Below, piece by piece: positions 25,799 to 32,439 of a stretch of DNA of 64,000 bases. Made by a program: the position numbers and the translations under genes. How positions within the stretch are numbered: the stretch's first letter is position 1; every line of letters begins with the position of its first letter. A model generated the notes under the pieces. That model ran no database searches. It was not told the origin of the DNA and worked only from the letters and a program-made list of their open reading frames with translations. Source of the stretch: Alicyclobacillus fastidiosus (GTDB lineage Bacteria; Bacillota; Bacilli; Alicyclobacillales; Alicyclobacillaceae); the NCBI RefSeq assembly GCF_026651875.1, contig NZ_CP104067.1, positions 744,001 through 808,000 of the forward strand, in the 5' to 3' direction.

Positions 25799-27139
25799 CT
25801 AAATTGCCGATTGGCGGTCGATTTTCTCGAAATATGAATCATAAAACGGTAGATTGTCGATTAAGTTGGTAAACATACTATTTTTACGCACGTACGTTCG
25901 GTAGGCATCCAGCGCCGCCTGCATGTATTCCTTCGAGTCTTCCTTCGCATCGACATCCTGTTCGAGCAGGTGAGCAATGCACTCCGCTGCCAACGCGTGG
26001 AGGATGTGATGACTGGTCTGGCTCGTGATCTGGAACGCTTTGTGGGCCGCATGCAGGCGCTCCTTCGCATCGCTCAACAATTGAACATGCATCAGGTAGA
26101 ACTGCGTCAGATTATGGGTGTCGTTTGCAGATTCGGCCGCACGGATGCCCAGGCTTACGTAAGACAACGCCTCTTCGCGACGGCCGGCCTGGATAGCCAA
26201 ATAGGTTTTGATGCGGTAAATGTCAGCTTGGCACAAGAAGTCGTACGCGGGTACGGTCGAGATGGCTGTCTGTGAATACGATGTCGCCTCCTCGTGTTGA
26301 CCAAGCAGAGCACACACTTCGGCGAGCGTCGTCGCGATTCTGCTCTTGTCCTCCGGAACGGTACTCCAACGGGACAACACGTCGTAGGCCGTGCAGAGCG
26401 ATTTCTTTGCTTCTTCCAACATCCCTAACCGCTGTTGAATGGTCCCCAACAGACCGAGCGAACTTCCTTGGTTCAGAAAGTCGTTCATCCTGTGGAAAAT
26501 CTCCACGGACCTTGAAGCATACCAGAGTGCGAGCACTTGAACGTCCAGATACGTATAGGCGTAACCGAGATTGTATGCTACGCGCCCTTGCAACGATTCA
26601 GTGAGGGCGTCACGGTGTTCATCTGCCTTGCGCAACCAGTGCTCTGCGTCTTCGAACCGATGCTCGAAGAGCAGCGAACTGCCGAGGTAGAAGTACGCCT
26701 CTGCGAGTAGCCCACGTCGGTAAACATGATGAATAATCAGGTGACATAATTCCTTTACTTGTTCAAAACTCCGCGTGTAATAATAGTGATGACAGAGTTG
26801 TGACGCAATTCTCTCATGGGCCGGTTGCCATCTTCCGCGATGATTGACGAGGATGCTCATTAAATCCTCTTCGTTGTGAGATGACACGTGAAAGTGGTCG
26901 AGGGTATTGTTCTCTAACCCTTCTGCGTATCGTTTTAGTAGGGCATCGTCAAGGCGATTTGCAATCAGATCTAGGACGTCTGGAGGTGGGAGTTGGCGCC
27001 CGCTCTCGATGAGGCTGATCATCGACTGGCTGCCCACACCATTGGCTAGCTCGTGTTGAGATAACCGTCTACTTTTTCGCAATTCTCGCACTCTGTGACC
27101 AATGATGAGACAGAGAAATTCGCGCTCAGCTTCTGTCAA
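25799..27139 (-). CDS. HTH-TPR regulator, RRNPP-type peptide receptor candidate
   Basis: A 446-residue protein: an XRE helix-turn-helix at residues 10-65 (VRELRKSRRLSQHELANGV, SQSMISLIESGRQLP), then only helical repeats (about residues 95-430) with TPR-like spacing, such as GLLAEAYFYLGSSLLFEHRF and RVAYNLGYAYTYL. This is the layout of NprR, PlcR and related Gram-positive cytoplasmic receptors for imported signalling peptides. TTG 27139 follows AGGAGGT. Head-to-head with it, 45 bases away, starts a 47-residue exported-peptide gene (27185-27328), the arrangement seen for Rgg-SHP pairs. The cognate relationship is inference; the architecture and location are seen directly. Confidence 0.85.
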   Translation of the reverse strand: MTEAEREFLCLIIGHRVRELRKSRRLSQHELANGVGSQSMISLIESGRQLPPPDVLDLIANRLDDALLKRYAEGLENNTLDHFHVSSHNEEDLMSILVNHRGRWQPAHERIASQLCHHYYYTRSFEQVKELCHLIIHHVYRRGLLAEAYFYLGSSLLFEHRFEDAEHWLRKADEHRDALTESLQGRVAYNLGYAYTYLDVQVLALWYASRSVEIFHRMNDFLNQGSSLGLLGTIQQRLGMLEEAKKSLCTAYDVLSRWSTVPEDKSRIATTLAEVCALLGQHEEATSYSQTAISTVPAYDFLCQADIYRIKTYLAIQAGRREEALSYVSLGIRAAESANDTHNLTQFYLMHVQLLSDAKERLHAAHKAFQITSQTSHHILHALAAECIAHLLEQDVDAKEDSKEYMQAALDAYRTYVRKNSMFTNLIDNLPFYDSYFEKIDRQSAI

Positions 27140-27152
27140 AGTGATTACCTCC

Positions 27153-27159
27153 TGATACT
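27153..27159 (+). promoter_or_regulatory. Weak candidate -10 for the peptide gene
   Basis: TGATACT in the 45-base gap between the two divergent start codons could be the -10 of the peptide gene, with no good -35. Because the gap is so short, the upstream promoter elements of each gene must lie inside the other's leader or coding region. Confidence 0.25.
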
Positions 27160-27184
27160 TAAATGAAGAGGAAGTGGTCTAAGG

Positions 27185-27328
27185 GTGAAAAAGACATCTG
27201 TTCTTCTGCTTACGAGCTTCGCAATCGTTGCGGCCGTGCTGGTTGTGGTCGGCGTGATCCAGCCAGACGGAACGCCGCCAACACCACTGCAGCCGCTGAT
27301 GGCCGCAAGCCTATTTCATTTGTTTTAA
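27185..27328 (+). CDS. 47-residue exported peptide, candidate signalling pro-peptide
   Basis: GTG start behind GAGGAAG at ten bases, stop TAA at 27326, and an intrinsic terminator nine bases later: a complete short gene. The product has two lysines, a hydrophobic stretch of about 20 residues (TSVLLLTSFAIVAAVLVVVG), a short proline-rich linker (PDGTPPTPLQPL) and a hydrophobic end, MAASLFHLF. That is the plan of PapR/NprX/Phr pre-peptides, which are exported, trimmed and re-imported as a C-terminal oligopeptide. The mature signal would come from the last 5-10 residues. A membrane-inserted regulator or toxin-like peptide is the alternative. The frame was found by direct translation; it does not resemble a peptide I know. 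Confidence 0.6.
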   Translation: MKKTSVLLLTSFAIVAAVLVVVGVIQPDGTPPTPLQPLMAASLFHLF

Positions 27329-27336
27329 TGTCAGGA

Positions 27337-27364
27337 AGTCGCGGGCATGCGCTCGCGGCTTTTA
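27337..27364 (+). terminator. Terminator of the peptide gene
   Basis: Arms GTCGCGGGC (27338-27346) and GCTCGCGGC (27351-27359) with G-U pairs, followed by TTTTATTT. It directly follows the 47-residue peptide frame, supporting that as a discrete transcription unit. Bases 27365-27610 hold no gene. Confidence 0.75.
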
Positions 27365-27617
27365 TTTACACCTTTTTCATATCGCTCATCATTCCACAAC
27401 TGTGGAATTCGACAGTTCATTATTTTCTCTATTTATGATCGATAATCCTTTTTCCCTCCCGCATCCCCCTGCGGGTTCCGCCCAGCGAAGTCGACCTGAC
27501 CATTTCGTGTGGGGTAAAATTACCCAAAGATAAATTTGGAGTCTAGATTTCTGTATTTCACCATAATCTCCTATCAGGCGGTAGGGACTTGCGGTTCCAT
27601 AACTTACCGGGGAATTG

Positions 27618-27626
27618 TGCTATCAT
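27618..27626 (+). promoter_or_regulatory. Extended -10 promoter of pgcA
   Basis: TG, one base, TATCAT (27621-27626), 46 bases before the GTG start. No strong -35 is visible. Confidence 0.4.
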
Positions 27627-27671
27627 GGACCCATACACGCTTCGTATGTTCGTATGATGGAGGGCAATGCT

Positions 27672-29411
27672 GTGACAGATCAAATCGATGCCATGAGCCG
27701 CTATGAGCAGTGGCTCAAGCAACCTCATTTAGCGAGTGACATCCAATCGGAACTTGAAGAAATTCGGGGCAACTCATCGGAAATTGGAGCCCGTTTCGGG
27801 TCGGACCTCGACTTTGGCACCGGCGGTTTGCGCGGCGTGATGGGCGCGGGCCTCAACCGCATGAATATCTACACCGTTCGCCGTGCGACGCGCGGTCTAG
27901 CCGAACACCTTCTCGCGAAAGGCGACCACGCAGCCAGTCGCGGCGTCGCGATAGGCTACGATTGTCGCCATAACTCCGCGTTGTTTGCAAGCGTTGCCGG
28001 GCGCACACTCGCTGCTGCGGGCATCAAAGCGTATGTTTCGCCGGTCTTGTGCCCCACGCCAGAACTCTCATTCGCTGTACGCACGCTGGGTGCGATGGCA
28101 GGTATCATGATCACGGCGAGCCACAATCCACCTGAATACAACGGATACAAGGCCTATAACGAGCATGGTGGACAGGTTCTGGAAGACGATGCGGCCGACA
28201 TCCGTTCGCGCATGCTGGCCATTGATGACATCTTCGGTGTGCCGATCATGGACGAGGATGAGGCCACCGCGGCTGGTCTACTCATCACGACCCCCATCGA
28301 TGTACGACATGCATTTCTCAAACAGGTTGTTCACCTCGTTCGCGACATCAGCGTCGGGGATGAAGCGAGACACCAACTCGGCGTGGTCTATACACCACTT
28401 CATGGCACTGGATTGGTACCCGTGCGCGAGACCTTCCAGGCGGCTGGATACACGGATGTCCATGTGTTAGATGCGCAGGCGGAACCAAACGGGGACTTCC
28501 CGACCGTGAAAAGTCCCAATCCGGAGGAGCCAGAGGCATTGGAAATGGCGATTCAAGCGGCGCTTGCACGAGGCGCAGACCTCGTGATGGGGACCGACCC
28601 GGACGGGGACAGGGTTGGCATCGCCGTGCGGACAAGGTCTGATCAGATGCAATTGTTGACAGGAAATCAGGTGGGTGCGCTTTTAGTCGATTACATGTGC
28701 ACAAAGTTCGCCGAACAGCGGCACGTGTCCGCTCCCATTGTCTTTAAAACGATTGTGACGTCCGAATTCGGTGCGGAAATCGCGCGGAGTGCAGGCATTG
28801 CCGTCGAGGAGACGCTAACCGGCTTTAAGTACATCGGAGATCGGATTACGGCGTATGAACGCACGGGTGCACATGAACTCCTCGTCGGATATGAGGAGAG
28901 TTACGGCTATCTGATCGCTCCTATCGTCCGGGACAAGGATGCGGTTCAAACTTGTCTCGCGATTGCCGAAATGGCCGCGTTTCATCGCCAAAACGGCCTC
29001 ACTCTGGTGGAACGCCTCGAGGCGCTCTACAAGACGTACGGGTACTTCCGGGAAGAGTTGGTGAGTGTGGCGCTGGACGGTGAAGACGGGGTGGAGCGCA
29101 TGCACAAAGCACTGGCAGATCTCCGCCAAGCGCCGCTTGCGGTTCCGGGGATGGAGCTGAACTTCGTCGAGGATTACCTGACGGGAGTTCGGCATTACGT
29201 CGGGAGCGAACAAAGTGACGAACCGCTCACGCTGCCCAAGTCGGACGTGCAGAAATTCGTCTTCAAGACGGGTGAATGGGCAGCTATTCGGCCATCTGGT
29301 ACGGAGCCGAAGATGAAGGTATACGCAGCTGTTCGCGGTGAAAGCCACGACGATGCGAAACGGCGATTAGCAGAACTCGTGGCTGCAGTCGACCAGCGCA
29401 TTCGCGTCTAA
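27672..29411 (+). CDS. pgcA: Phosphoglucomutase / phospho-sugar mutase
   Basis: Interconverts glucose-1-phosphate and glucose-6-phosphate for cell-envelope and storage sugars. The 579-residue protein has all four domains of the alpha-D-phosphohexomutases: active-site serine in TASHNPPEYNGYKAY, metal loop GTDPDGDRVGIA, sugar loop GYEESYGYL, and phosphate loop RPSGTEPKMKVY. GTG 27672 follows GGAGGG by seven bases; the longer frame from 27615 lies across the promoter. Single gene with its own terminator. Together with zwf at 59.6 kb it feeds glucose-6-phosphate metabolism. Confidence 0.92.
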   Translation: MTDQIDAMSRYEQWLKQPHLASDIQSELEEIRGNSSEIGARFGSDLDFGTGGLRGVMGAGLNRMNIYTVRRATRGLAEHLLAKGDHAASRGVAIGYDCRHNSALFASVAGRTLAAAGIKAYVSPVLCPTPELSFAVRTLGAMAGIMITASHNPPEYNGYKAYNEHGGQVLEDDAADIRSRMLAIDDIFGVPIMDEDEATAAGLLITTPIDVRHAFLKQVVHLVRDISVGDEARHQLGVVYTPLHGTGLVPVRETFQAAGYTDVHVLDAQAEPNGDFPTVKSPNPEEPEALEMAIQAALARGADLVMGTDPDGDRVGIAVRTRSDQMQLLTGNQVGALLVDYMCTKFAEQRHVSAPIVFKTIVTSEFGAEIARSAGIAVEETLTGFKYIGDRITAYERTGAHELLVGYEESYGYLIAPIVRDKDAVQTCLAIAEMAAFHRQNGLTLVERLEALYKTYGYFREELVSVALDGEDGVERMHKALADLRQAPLAVPGMELNFVEDYLTGVRHYVGSEQSDEPLTLPKSDVQKFVFKTGEWAAIRPSGTEPKMKVYAAVRGESHDDAKRRLAELVAAVDQRIRV

Positions 29412-30996: not shown

Positions 30997-32439
30997 ATGA
31001 AAAAGTCTCCCGACAAAGTCTTTCATCTCTCCATCGCTATCATTGCTATTTTCGTCACGCTCGTATCCTTACTTTCTATGATTTATGAGCGAATTCCCCC
31101 CTCTCTCGGCCAGATATTGAGCGTATCGCGAGTTTGGTCCGCGTTACACGCCAACACCCCATGGCTCGGCGGGACGGCTCAGACGCTCGTCAACAGGTCA
31201 GGCGATGTGCCGGGCGGGGTGGGAACCACCAAAACCGAGACGACGAGGGCTGACCAAGCGCTTCTCGAGAAGGTGAACGTGAAGGCGGTCGGCAAGGGTG
31301 CGACCGCTGAGGATGTCGCCAACGCGAAGCGCCTTTTGAAGCAAATTAATACACCGGAACTCATCCAAAATACGGTCCAACTTCCCCTCAAGCAACCGAT
31401 CACCATAGAACTCATCGGAAATACATCTGCGTACGCGAGTGCGCTCAAATCGCTCGGGTTGAACCCCAGTGAGGCTGCGGGTCTTTCCATGGACACAGGT
31501 GGGTTTACGCAGAACTCCACAATTCTCATTCCGCTCAGTCAGAACAAGGACAACGCCGATCTCGCCAATACCCTCACACACGAGATGACGCATGCAATCT
31601 TCAACCAGAATATCAGTTATCTCCCCAGTTGGATCAATGAAGGCATCGCGGTGACCATGGGCATGACGGGGCAGAAGGTGGTTGAAAATGCGACAGTCTA
31701 TGCGGCTTATGAGCGGCAACTGGCGGAGTCCATCGTCGATGTGGCTGGACAAAACCAACTGCAGCCGCTCGCGGACGACGAATCTGTCATTCTTTCCGGC
31801 AAAACCAGTTACGACTACGAGTTGCAAGACTGGCTGGCCGTGCGCGACCTCATCTTTGAACACGGCGTCGCAGCCATCGACCGCTACTTGTCCCTCATGA
31901 GCCACCACGCGGACGAATCGCAGGCGTTTATCGTCGCGTTCGGTGAGAAGGAGGACGTGTTCAACCAACATCTCACCCATCTTCTAAAGACGGCCGCCGC
32001 GTCGACGGATGAAGGAGCCACCTTCGGACTGACCATTGGGTCACAATTTAAAGGCAGTATCGACTTCCTCCAGCACGGCAAGACAGAGTGGGAGGGTGTC
32101 GAGGCGAAGGCGGGATCGTACCAGATCACGGTTCAACAGGACGGGCGATTGGAGGGGGCGCTACCTGCAGTTGCGCCGATCACCGACGTTGACCCAAGCG
32201 ACGACAACACCCTCTACATTTCCCTGACGCCCAAAGGCGCCCTCACCTGGCAGGGGACGAAGGTGACCGACTGCGGATTTGCGTTTGACGTCCACGACGG
32301 TCTGTACTCCTTTGCGGATGCGTGGGTGAGCTTGGCCAATGGCCAGACGGTCTACCAGTCGACACCGACGCTATTTGGAGTCACCATCACATCCGAATCC
32401 GAGGTCAATTCGAATGACCCCATCGTGAAGTTGTTGTGA
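30997..32439 (+). CDS. Membrane-anchored gluzincin-type metallopeptidase
   Basis: 480 residues. A signal-anchor helix (LSIAIIAIFVTLVSLLSMIY, residues 11-30) puts the rest outside the cell. A Thr/Gly-rich linker follows, then a peptidase domain of the Peptidase_MA kind: zinc motif HEMTH at about 195-199 inside LANTLTHEMTHAIFN, with the third ligand glutamate in SWINEGIAV at about 215. The C-terminal 150 residues look like beta-rich binding modules. RBS GAGGTG precedes the ATG. I can assign the catalytic class, not the substrate. Confidence 0.75.
   Translation: MKKSPDKVFHLSIAIIAIFVTLVSLLSMIYERIPPSLGQILSVSRVWSALHANTPWLGGTAQTLVNRSGDVPGGVGTTKTETTRADQALLEKVNVKAVGKGATAEDVANAKRLLKQINTPELIQNTVQLPLKQPITIELIGNTSAYASALKSLGLNPSEAAGLSMDTGGFTQNSTILIPLSQNKDNADLANTLTHEMTHAIFNQNISYLPSWINEGIAVTMGMTGQKVVENATVYAAYERQLAESIVDVAGQNQLQPLADDESVILSGKTSYDYELQDWLAVRDLIFEHGVAAIDRYLSLMSHHADESQAFIVAFGEKEDVFNQHLTHLLKTAAASTDEGATFGLTIGSQFKGSIDFLQHGKTEWEGVEAKAGSYQITVQQDGRLEGALPAVAPITDVDPSDDNTLYISLTPKGALTWQGTKVTDCGFAFDVHDGLYSFADAWVSLANGQTVYQSTPTLFGVTITSESEVNSNDPIVKLL

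Follow-up and report, generated by a model that had tools for sequence, protein, structure and literature searches.

A divergent HTH-TPR regulator and exported-type peptide with a conserved proline core: a probable RRNPP-type subfamily in Alicyclobacillaceae

We studied a head-to-head gene pair in a 64,000-nucleotide stretch of Alicyclobacillus fastidiosus DNA (contig NZ_CP104067.1, positions 744,001 to 808,000; hereafter the window), which probably represents a pheromone-receptor subfamily of the RRNPP type that we found only in Alicyclobacillaceae. One gene (25799–27139, minus strand, TTG start) encodes a 446-residue protein with helix-turn-helix (HTH) and tetratricopeptide repeat (TPR) matches, the proposed peptide receptor and transcription factor. 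The other (27185–27328, plus strand, 47 codons from a GTG start) encodes an exported-type propeptide. The start codons lie 45 bp apart, and this gap (27140–27184) contains both ribosome sites, AGGAGG for the regulator at 27148–27153 (minus strand) and AGAGGAAG for the peptide at 27167–27174 (plus strand). A preliminary description had reported this GTG-started frame, with its ribosome site, 45 bases from the regulator, as we confirm here, and had offered the pair as a candidate new quorum-sensing system. That proposal gains support from peptide frames at all 15 orthologous loci, from codon bias within the frame, and from a receptor asparagine that largely tracks the presence of the peptide. 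RRNPP systems are known; sequence comparison suggests that the pair is best read as a new subfamily of them.

Under this reading, the 47-residue propeptide would be exported, trimmed outside the cell to a short peptide around the motif PPTPL, and re-imported; the genome containing the window has 19 SBP_bac_5 matches, 18 of them above cut-off, which are candidate oligopeptide-binding proteins. Inside the cell the peptide would be held in the TPR groove of the regulator by N190 and its neighbours, and binding would change how the regulator acts on DNA, including at the 45-bp gap where the two genes have their start signals. We infer export, processing, import and binding, and with them autoregulation and the pair's targets.

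A search profile built from 12 regulators identified 15 orthologues, counting the window's, spread over 15 of the 41 Alicyclobacillaceae genomes, plus four paralogues. No further regulators were found in 59 genomes of the order at E 1e-25, and 398 genomes drawn from the class gave 10 regulators at E 1e-20, all in Alicyclobacillaceae. A scan of named genomes matched A. mengziensis, A. pomorum, A. herbarius, A. contaminans, A. kakegawensis, A. shizuokensis, A. ferrooxydans, Alicyclobacillus sp. ALC3 and a Bacillota metagenome-assembled genome; a tenth locus matched across residues 2–84 only. The viral contigs searched held no relative of the regulator, and the five matches in a plasmid search were confined to the HTH region.

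A divergent peptide frame was present at 15/15 orthologues, so that the regulator's orthologues keep the frame whose loss the preliminary description had named as grounds for rejecting the pair. These frames have 38–47 residues, are basic at their start, contain a hydrophobic segment, and begin 30–56 bases from the regulator start. Two of the four paralogues (L058 and L059) also have a divergent peptide gene, the gap across all 17 loci being 21–56 bp. Other HTH-TPR loci served as controls, in two sets, with L021 and L026 left out for want of a scorable frame. An adjoining exported-type frame was absent from 13 of the 16 scorable loci in the first set, where some frame picks were poor (L019 and L030, for example), and from 17 of 19 in the second; a hydrophobic frame 199 bases downstream of L079 was taken as chance, and this locus was counted as peptide-less in the tree described below.

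The pattern of nucleotide change identifies the peptide frame as a conserved gene under coding selection. Pooled over four close pairs, its ratio of nonsynonymous to synonymous change (pN/pS) was 0.15, and third positions took 41 of 58 differences (P 7e-9). Of the other five frames, four had ratios of 1.1–6.0; frame -1 stood at 0.28, as is to be expected where changes sit at third positions. The preliminary description had held that changes without codon bias would count against the peptide; the bias is strong. A gene for a short, putatively exported propeptide beside the receptor, one of the RRNPP(A) traits, is present, given its occurrence at all orthologues and the coding selection on it. 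The GTG start might suggest a chance frame in the regulator's leader, as might a longer frame that overlaps it (27163–27438) and is open in genome G004 too, but we give that next to no credence, since the two other forward frames have pN/pS of 3.0 and 3.9 and the peptide frame is kept at every orthologue. All 17 loci satisfied a set of criteria for an exported-type frame, as did 0.5% of 5100 dinucleotide shuffles, or 0.06% of these when P.P near the end was also required; the criteria were tuned to these 17 loci, with the ribosome-site pattern widened after the loci were inspected, so the contrast is somewhat flattering.

A motif-anchored alignment placed the conserved core of the peptide at PPTPL (27275–27289, plus strand), which is the best candidate for the core of the signal. 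Of the 17 peptides, 16 have PPxP with M, L, F, A or V as the next residue, and the remaining one (L004) has VPEPM. Tails beyond the motif vary in length and character, and the SLFHLF of the window peptide is common to G004 only. The preliminary description had instead favoured MAASLFHLF, the hydrophobic C-terminus, as the ligand; SHP and cCF10 would be parallels for this. Conservation gives that end no support, because the conserved part is PPTPL. Hydrophobic ends do recur in the window's genus, as SLFHLF, identical between G000 and G004, and as FFLNLLGF (G001), and likewise in G029 and the paralogues L058 and L059. The ends in four other genera, however, are largely polar and dissimilar (STSY, VGYQTTHLP, AVHTIH, SHTSTL) while PPxP is retained, and we consider a ligand at the hydrophobic end unlikely. 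Literature queries with PPTPM, PPEPM and PPTPF gave no paper on such a system, judged by titles.

The regulator matched PF01381 (HTH_3) at 3.7e-9, above cut-off, and five TPR models at 2e-5 to 7e-4 plus one at 0.44, every one below its own cut-off. Its profile matched PDB entries for RapF at 2.4e-11, NprR at 1.8e-8 (over about 205 residues only) and the PlcR HTH at 2.8e-10. These matches bear out the HTH-TPR layout first noticed in the sequence, and point to two further RRNPP(A) traits, an N-terminal XRE-type HTH and a C-terminal TPR array. Among RRNPP receptors, Rap is the exception with regard to the N-terminal HTH. No model specific to a subfamily (Rap, NprR, PlcR, PrgX, Rgg, ComR or AimR) matched in Pfam or NCBIfam, whose models probably extend to these subfamilies; the matches there were to HTH, TPR and weak unrelated models only. 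PHROGs matches were to families labelled merely transcriptional regulator or repressor, largely across the HTH. A synonymous-site profile of the gene peaked at codons 108–131 (z 3.8), a peak for which we make no claim because troughs were equally deep (z -3.8).

In a tree of 41 HTH-TPR proteins, in which some long branches were flagged, the 17 peptide-linked regulators grouped with two orphans in a single clade (100/99), and 18 proteins that have no such peptide formed a separate one (99/95). The orphans within the peptide-linked clade are the paralogues L056 (G016:C1:1879127) and L057 (G061:C1:2403357); a gene for a protease of family S53 lies ~1 kb downstream of L057.

Residues 187–191 of the regulator (V-A-Y-N-L, codons 26567–26581, minus strand) align with the region of RapF Asn227, which corresponds to N190 by residue counting in an alignment of the orthologue L004 with RapF (single-sequence E 0.02). 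RapF Asn227 anchors the peptide by holding its backbone, and Arg223 holds the peptide's C-terminus, according to PMC3601957. Of the 19 clade members, 18 have asparagine at the Asn227 position; of the 18 peptide-less proteins, two do (L080 and L081), by a count made by eye and at an identity low enough to make the alignment a caveat. N190 thus appears to supply the peptide-holding Asn that is another RRNPP(A) trait. The position of RapF Tyr226 is an invariant Tyr (Y189 in the window), and that of Arg223 is K/R in 16 of 19 clade members (R186 in the window). Both orphans have Leu there.

These residues bear on two further alternatives. A small membrane or antimicrobial peptide, merely regulated by the divergent HTH-TPR protein and not sensed by it, would fit the hydrophobic N-terminal segment, the divergent layout and the gene's own terminator-like hairpin (below). 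We nonetheless think it quite improbable: the anchor Asn largely accompanies the peptide, the Arg expected to hold the peptide's end is gone from both orphans, and the short tail core is more conserved than the hydrophobic segment. Still less probable is a toxin-antitoxin-like pair, in which a toxic hydrophobic peptide would be restrained by an HTH antitoxin. The peptide is indeed small and hydrophobic and the regulator's HTH is weakly like antitoxin families, at scores far below cut-offs, but a 446-residue HTH-TPR regulator with RRNPP-type residues, a conserved proline core and divergent genes all argue against it.

Export of the peptide was judged from charge and hydrophobicity only, the Sec-type look being assessed by eye. 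The ribosome site lies ~10 nt from the GTG, which is longer than usual and a caveat, and is kept in G004. After the stop codon, a 13-pair hairpin followed by T-rich DNA (27334–27363, plus strand; z -2.0, equalled by 7 of 200 shuffles) is the probable terminator that the preliminary description had assigned to this gene, although a simple terminator scan of the window did not list it. Such a terminator-like hairpin follows the peptide stop at 13 of 17 homologous loci, the window included, against 1.5% of 850 single-base shuffles; it is absent at L007, L012, L053 and L059.

Promoters were sought at the 17 loci with a hand-written sigma-A matrix, using the 95% shuffle level as cut-off. At L058 a site for the regulator exceeded this level; so did sites at L005 and L051 on the peptide side, which fall within conserved coding sequence. 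A general scan of 26700–27700 gave 4 promoter-like sites on the plus strand against 1.1 expected, none of them inside the gap. Since 21–56 bases carry the start signals of both genes, the promoters probably extend into the opposite coding sequence, with a clear placement only in L058. There, a near-consensus TTGAAA-16-TATAAT for the regulator sits within the peptide gene, and its transcript would therefore be antisense to the peptide's start. Mutual interference of the two promoters is possible; it has reportedly been modelled for other convergent switches. Comparing the gap region with nine upstream regions of S53 and other neighbouring genes gave top 18-mer matches no better than those in 12 shuffles each.

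Several observations tell against a peptide-sensing pair. The paralogues L056 and L057 lack a divergent peptide gene, so orphan receptors exist, and both retain the anchor Asn; the peptide-linked L058 has Ser at that position. Among four HTH-TPR proteins with another type of peptide, Asn is found in two and absent in two. RapF Asp194 aligns with Phe in L004, a lack of conservation that may be expected because the peptide lacks the Arg that Asp194 binds. An A-x-A signal-peptidase site is not evident in the window peptide. A single-sequence search of PDB put eukaryotic TPR proteins at the top and NprR ninth, and kinesin light chains headed the profile search, as generic TPRs can do. In the window, neither gene has a sigma-A site above the 95% shuffle level, and no DNA motif common to the gap and the nine neighbour promoters was found.

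We compared the pair with known systems. In NprR-NprX of the Bacillus cereus group, too, one receptor of comparable size joins an HTH to a long TPR array, and a short exported propeptide is encoded beside it; the sequence match of its TPRs to the window regulator covers ~205 residues only. The system differs in being co-directional where the window pair is head-to-head, and in its signal, SKPDIVG against a PPxP[M/L/F] core. NprR has been linked to a secreted protease. Rgg-SHP and ComR-ComS are alike in having a small hydrophobic propeptide adjoining an HTH receptor, divergently in some cases; they are unlike in that the window regulator matches no Rgg-type model in Pfam or NCBIfam and its peptide carries a proline core and, judged by eye, is of Sec type. 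RapF-PhrF offers the residues Asn227, Tyr226 and Arg223, comparable with N190, Y189 and R186, but the regulator has no counterpart of Asp194 and the window peptide no Arg at position 2. Rap, moreover, lacks a DNA-binding HTH and acts on response regulators (in part from PMC3601957).

The accessible part of the RRNPP_detector paper (PMC10075063) covers Alicyclobacillaceae by a count, of 10 gene clusters that contain a candidate RRNPP pair, and names no pair of this kind; its tables may nevertheless include some relatives. By default its search for unannotated small frames takes ATG starts, and it may miss the GTG-started peptide of the window where no gene caller had found the frame. Literature on Alicyclobacillus or Alicyclobacillaceae together with RRNPP or quorum sensing held no description of the pair, judged by the titles listed, and the main text of two other RRNPP surveys leaves Alicyclobacillus and three related genera unmentioned. 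The pair offers a pheromone candidate with a conserved core for acidophilic spore-formers, Alicyclobacillus and close kin, makeable as a 5–12-mer. Peptide-linked, orphan (two) and peptide-less receptors together make a good case for studying gain and loss of peptide sensing in HTH-TPR proteins.

A phospho-sugar mutase gene lies near the pair on the peptide side in 7 of 14 fetched orthologue regions, sometimes with one gene intervening. The 15 genomes hold 33 S53 (pro-kumamolisin) activation domains and 47 S53-type places altogether, merged by hand. Nine of the 47 lie <10 kb from the pair, against 0.24 expected, in six of the 15 genomes (G036, G020, G017, G032, G062 and G029); the nine include a stand-alone propeptide in G036 and a piece with a stop in G029. 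Counting shared arrangements once, P was 8e-4 for at least three of five lineages, and by genus 3e-5 for four of six genera, both before correction for the gene families examined. The S53 family was picked after the neighbours were seen.

In G020 the pair is flanked by S53 genes on either side. G036 has, directly downstream of the regulator, a 216-residue frame with the S53 propeptide only (L065:10947–11594), perhaps a protease inhibitor, and, after the peptide gene, an 868-residue exported-type protein with an HExxH motif. In the window's own genome, no S53 gene lies near the pair. At 30997–32439, 3.7 kb from the pair, the window encodes an exported-type 480-residue protein with HEMTH (HExxH) and NEG motifs, which gave no match in a Pfam search; it is 26% identical to the 868-residue protein over 253 residues, and relatives lie close to the pair in other genomes. 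We treat the protease link as a lead, because it is post hoc, is absent in the window's genome and comes with no common promoter motif.

If the link is true, peptide signalling would be tied to proteolysis in acid. The PPxP[M/L/F] pheromone and the kumamolisin-type (S53) acid proteases might then form one acid-adapted quorum circuit, in which the proteases would be under receptor control, would cut the pheromone near its proline core, or both, and density sensing would work in acid, where neutral proteases would fail. Kumamolisin is active at ~pH 3–4 and is described as cleaving at Pro-Arg or Pro-Lys. S53 genes near the pair in 6/15 genomes favour such a circuit, but kumamolisin prefers Arg, which occurs in one of 17 cores only (PPRPM), and S53 is not nearby in three genomes of the window's genus and three of g3. 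We regard the circuit as a possibility, though a doubtful one.

In each of the three g3 genomes (G016, G031 and G061), a small exported-type protein is encoded directly downstream of the regulator, and the three proteins (L063:7472–7771, L064:11207–11560 and L070:9830–10246) are related; a relative of these, L031:5448–5864, had no Pfam match.

Further HTH-TPR genes with small peptides were noted. At L016 and L023 (G039 and G040), an exported-type peptide is divergent to genes for 395-residue HTH-TPR proteins, 113 bases from the regulator; the peptides end in SSPLAVTDPGVI and SSPLAITDPGVL, and the anchor position is Asn in both regulators. They form a second candidate RRNPP pair, this one from a sister family. 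L086 (G029:C1:4064000–4069000) has an HTH-TPR gene with a divergent small exported-type peptide ending in STTEIPGPGVDVVTTLSQ, and at L013 (G060:C2:8440–12612) a small exported-type peptide ending in EEPPKATSVQIDK lies downstream of an HTH-TPR gene.
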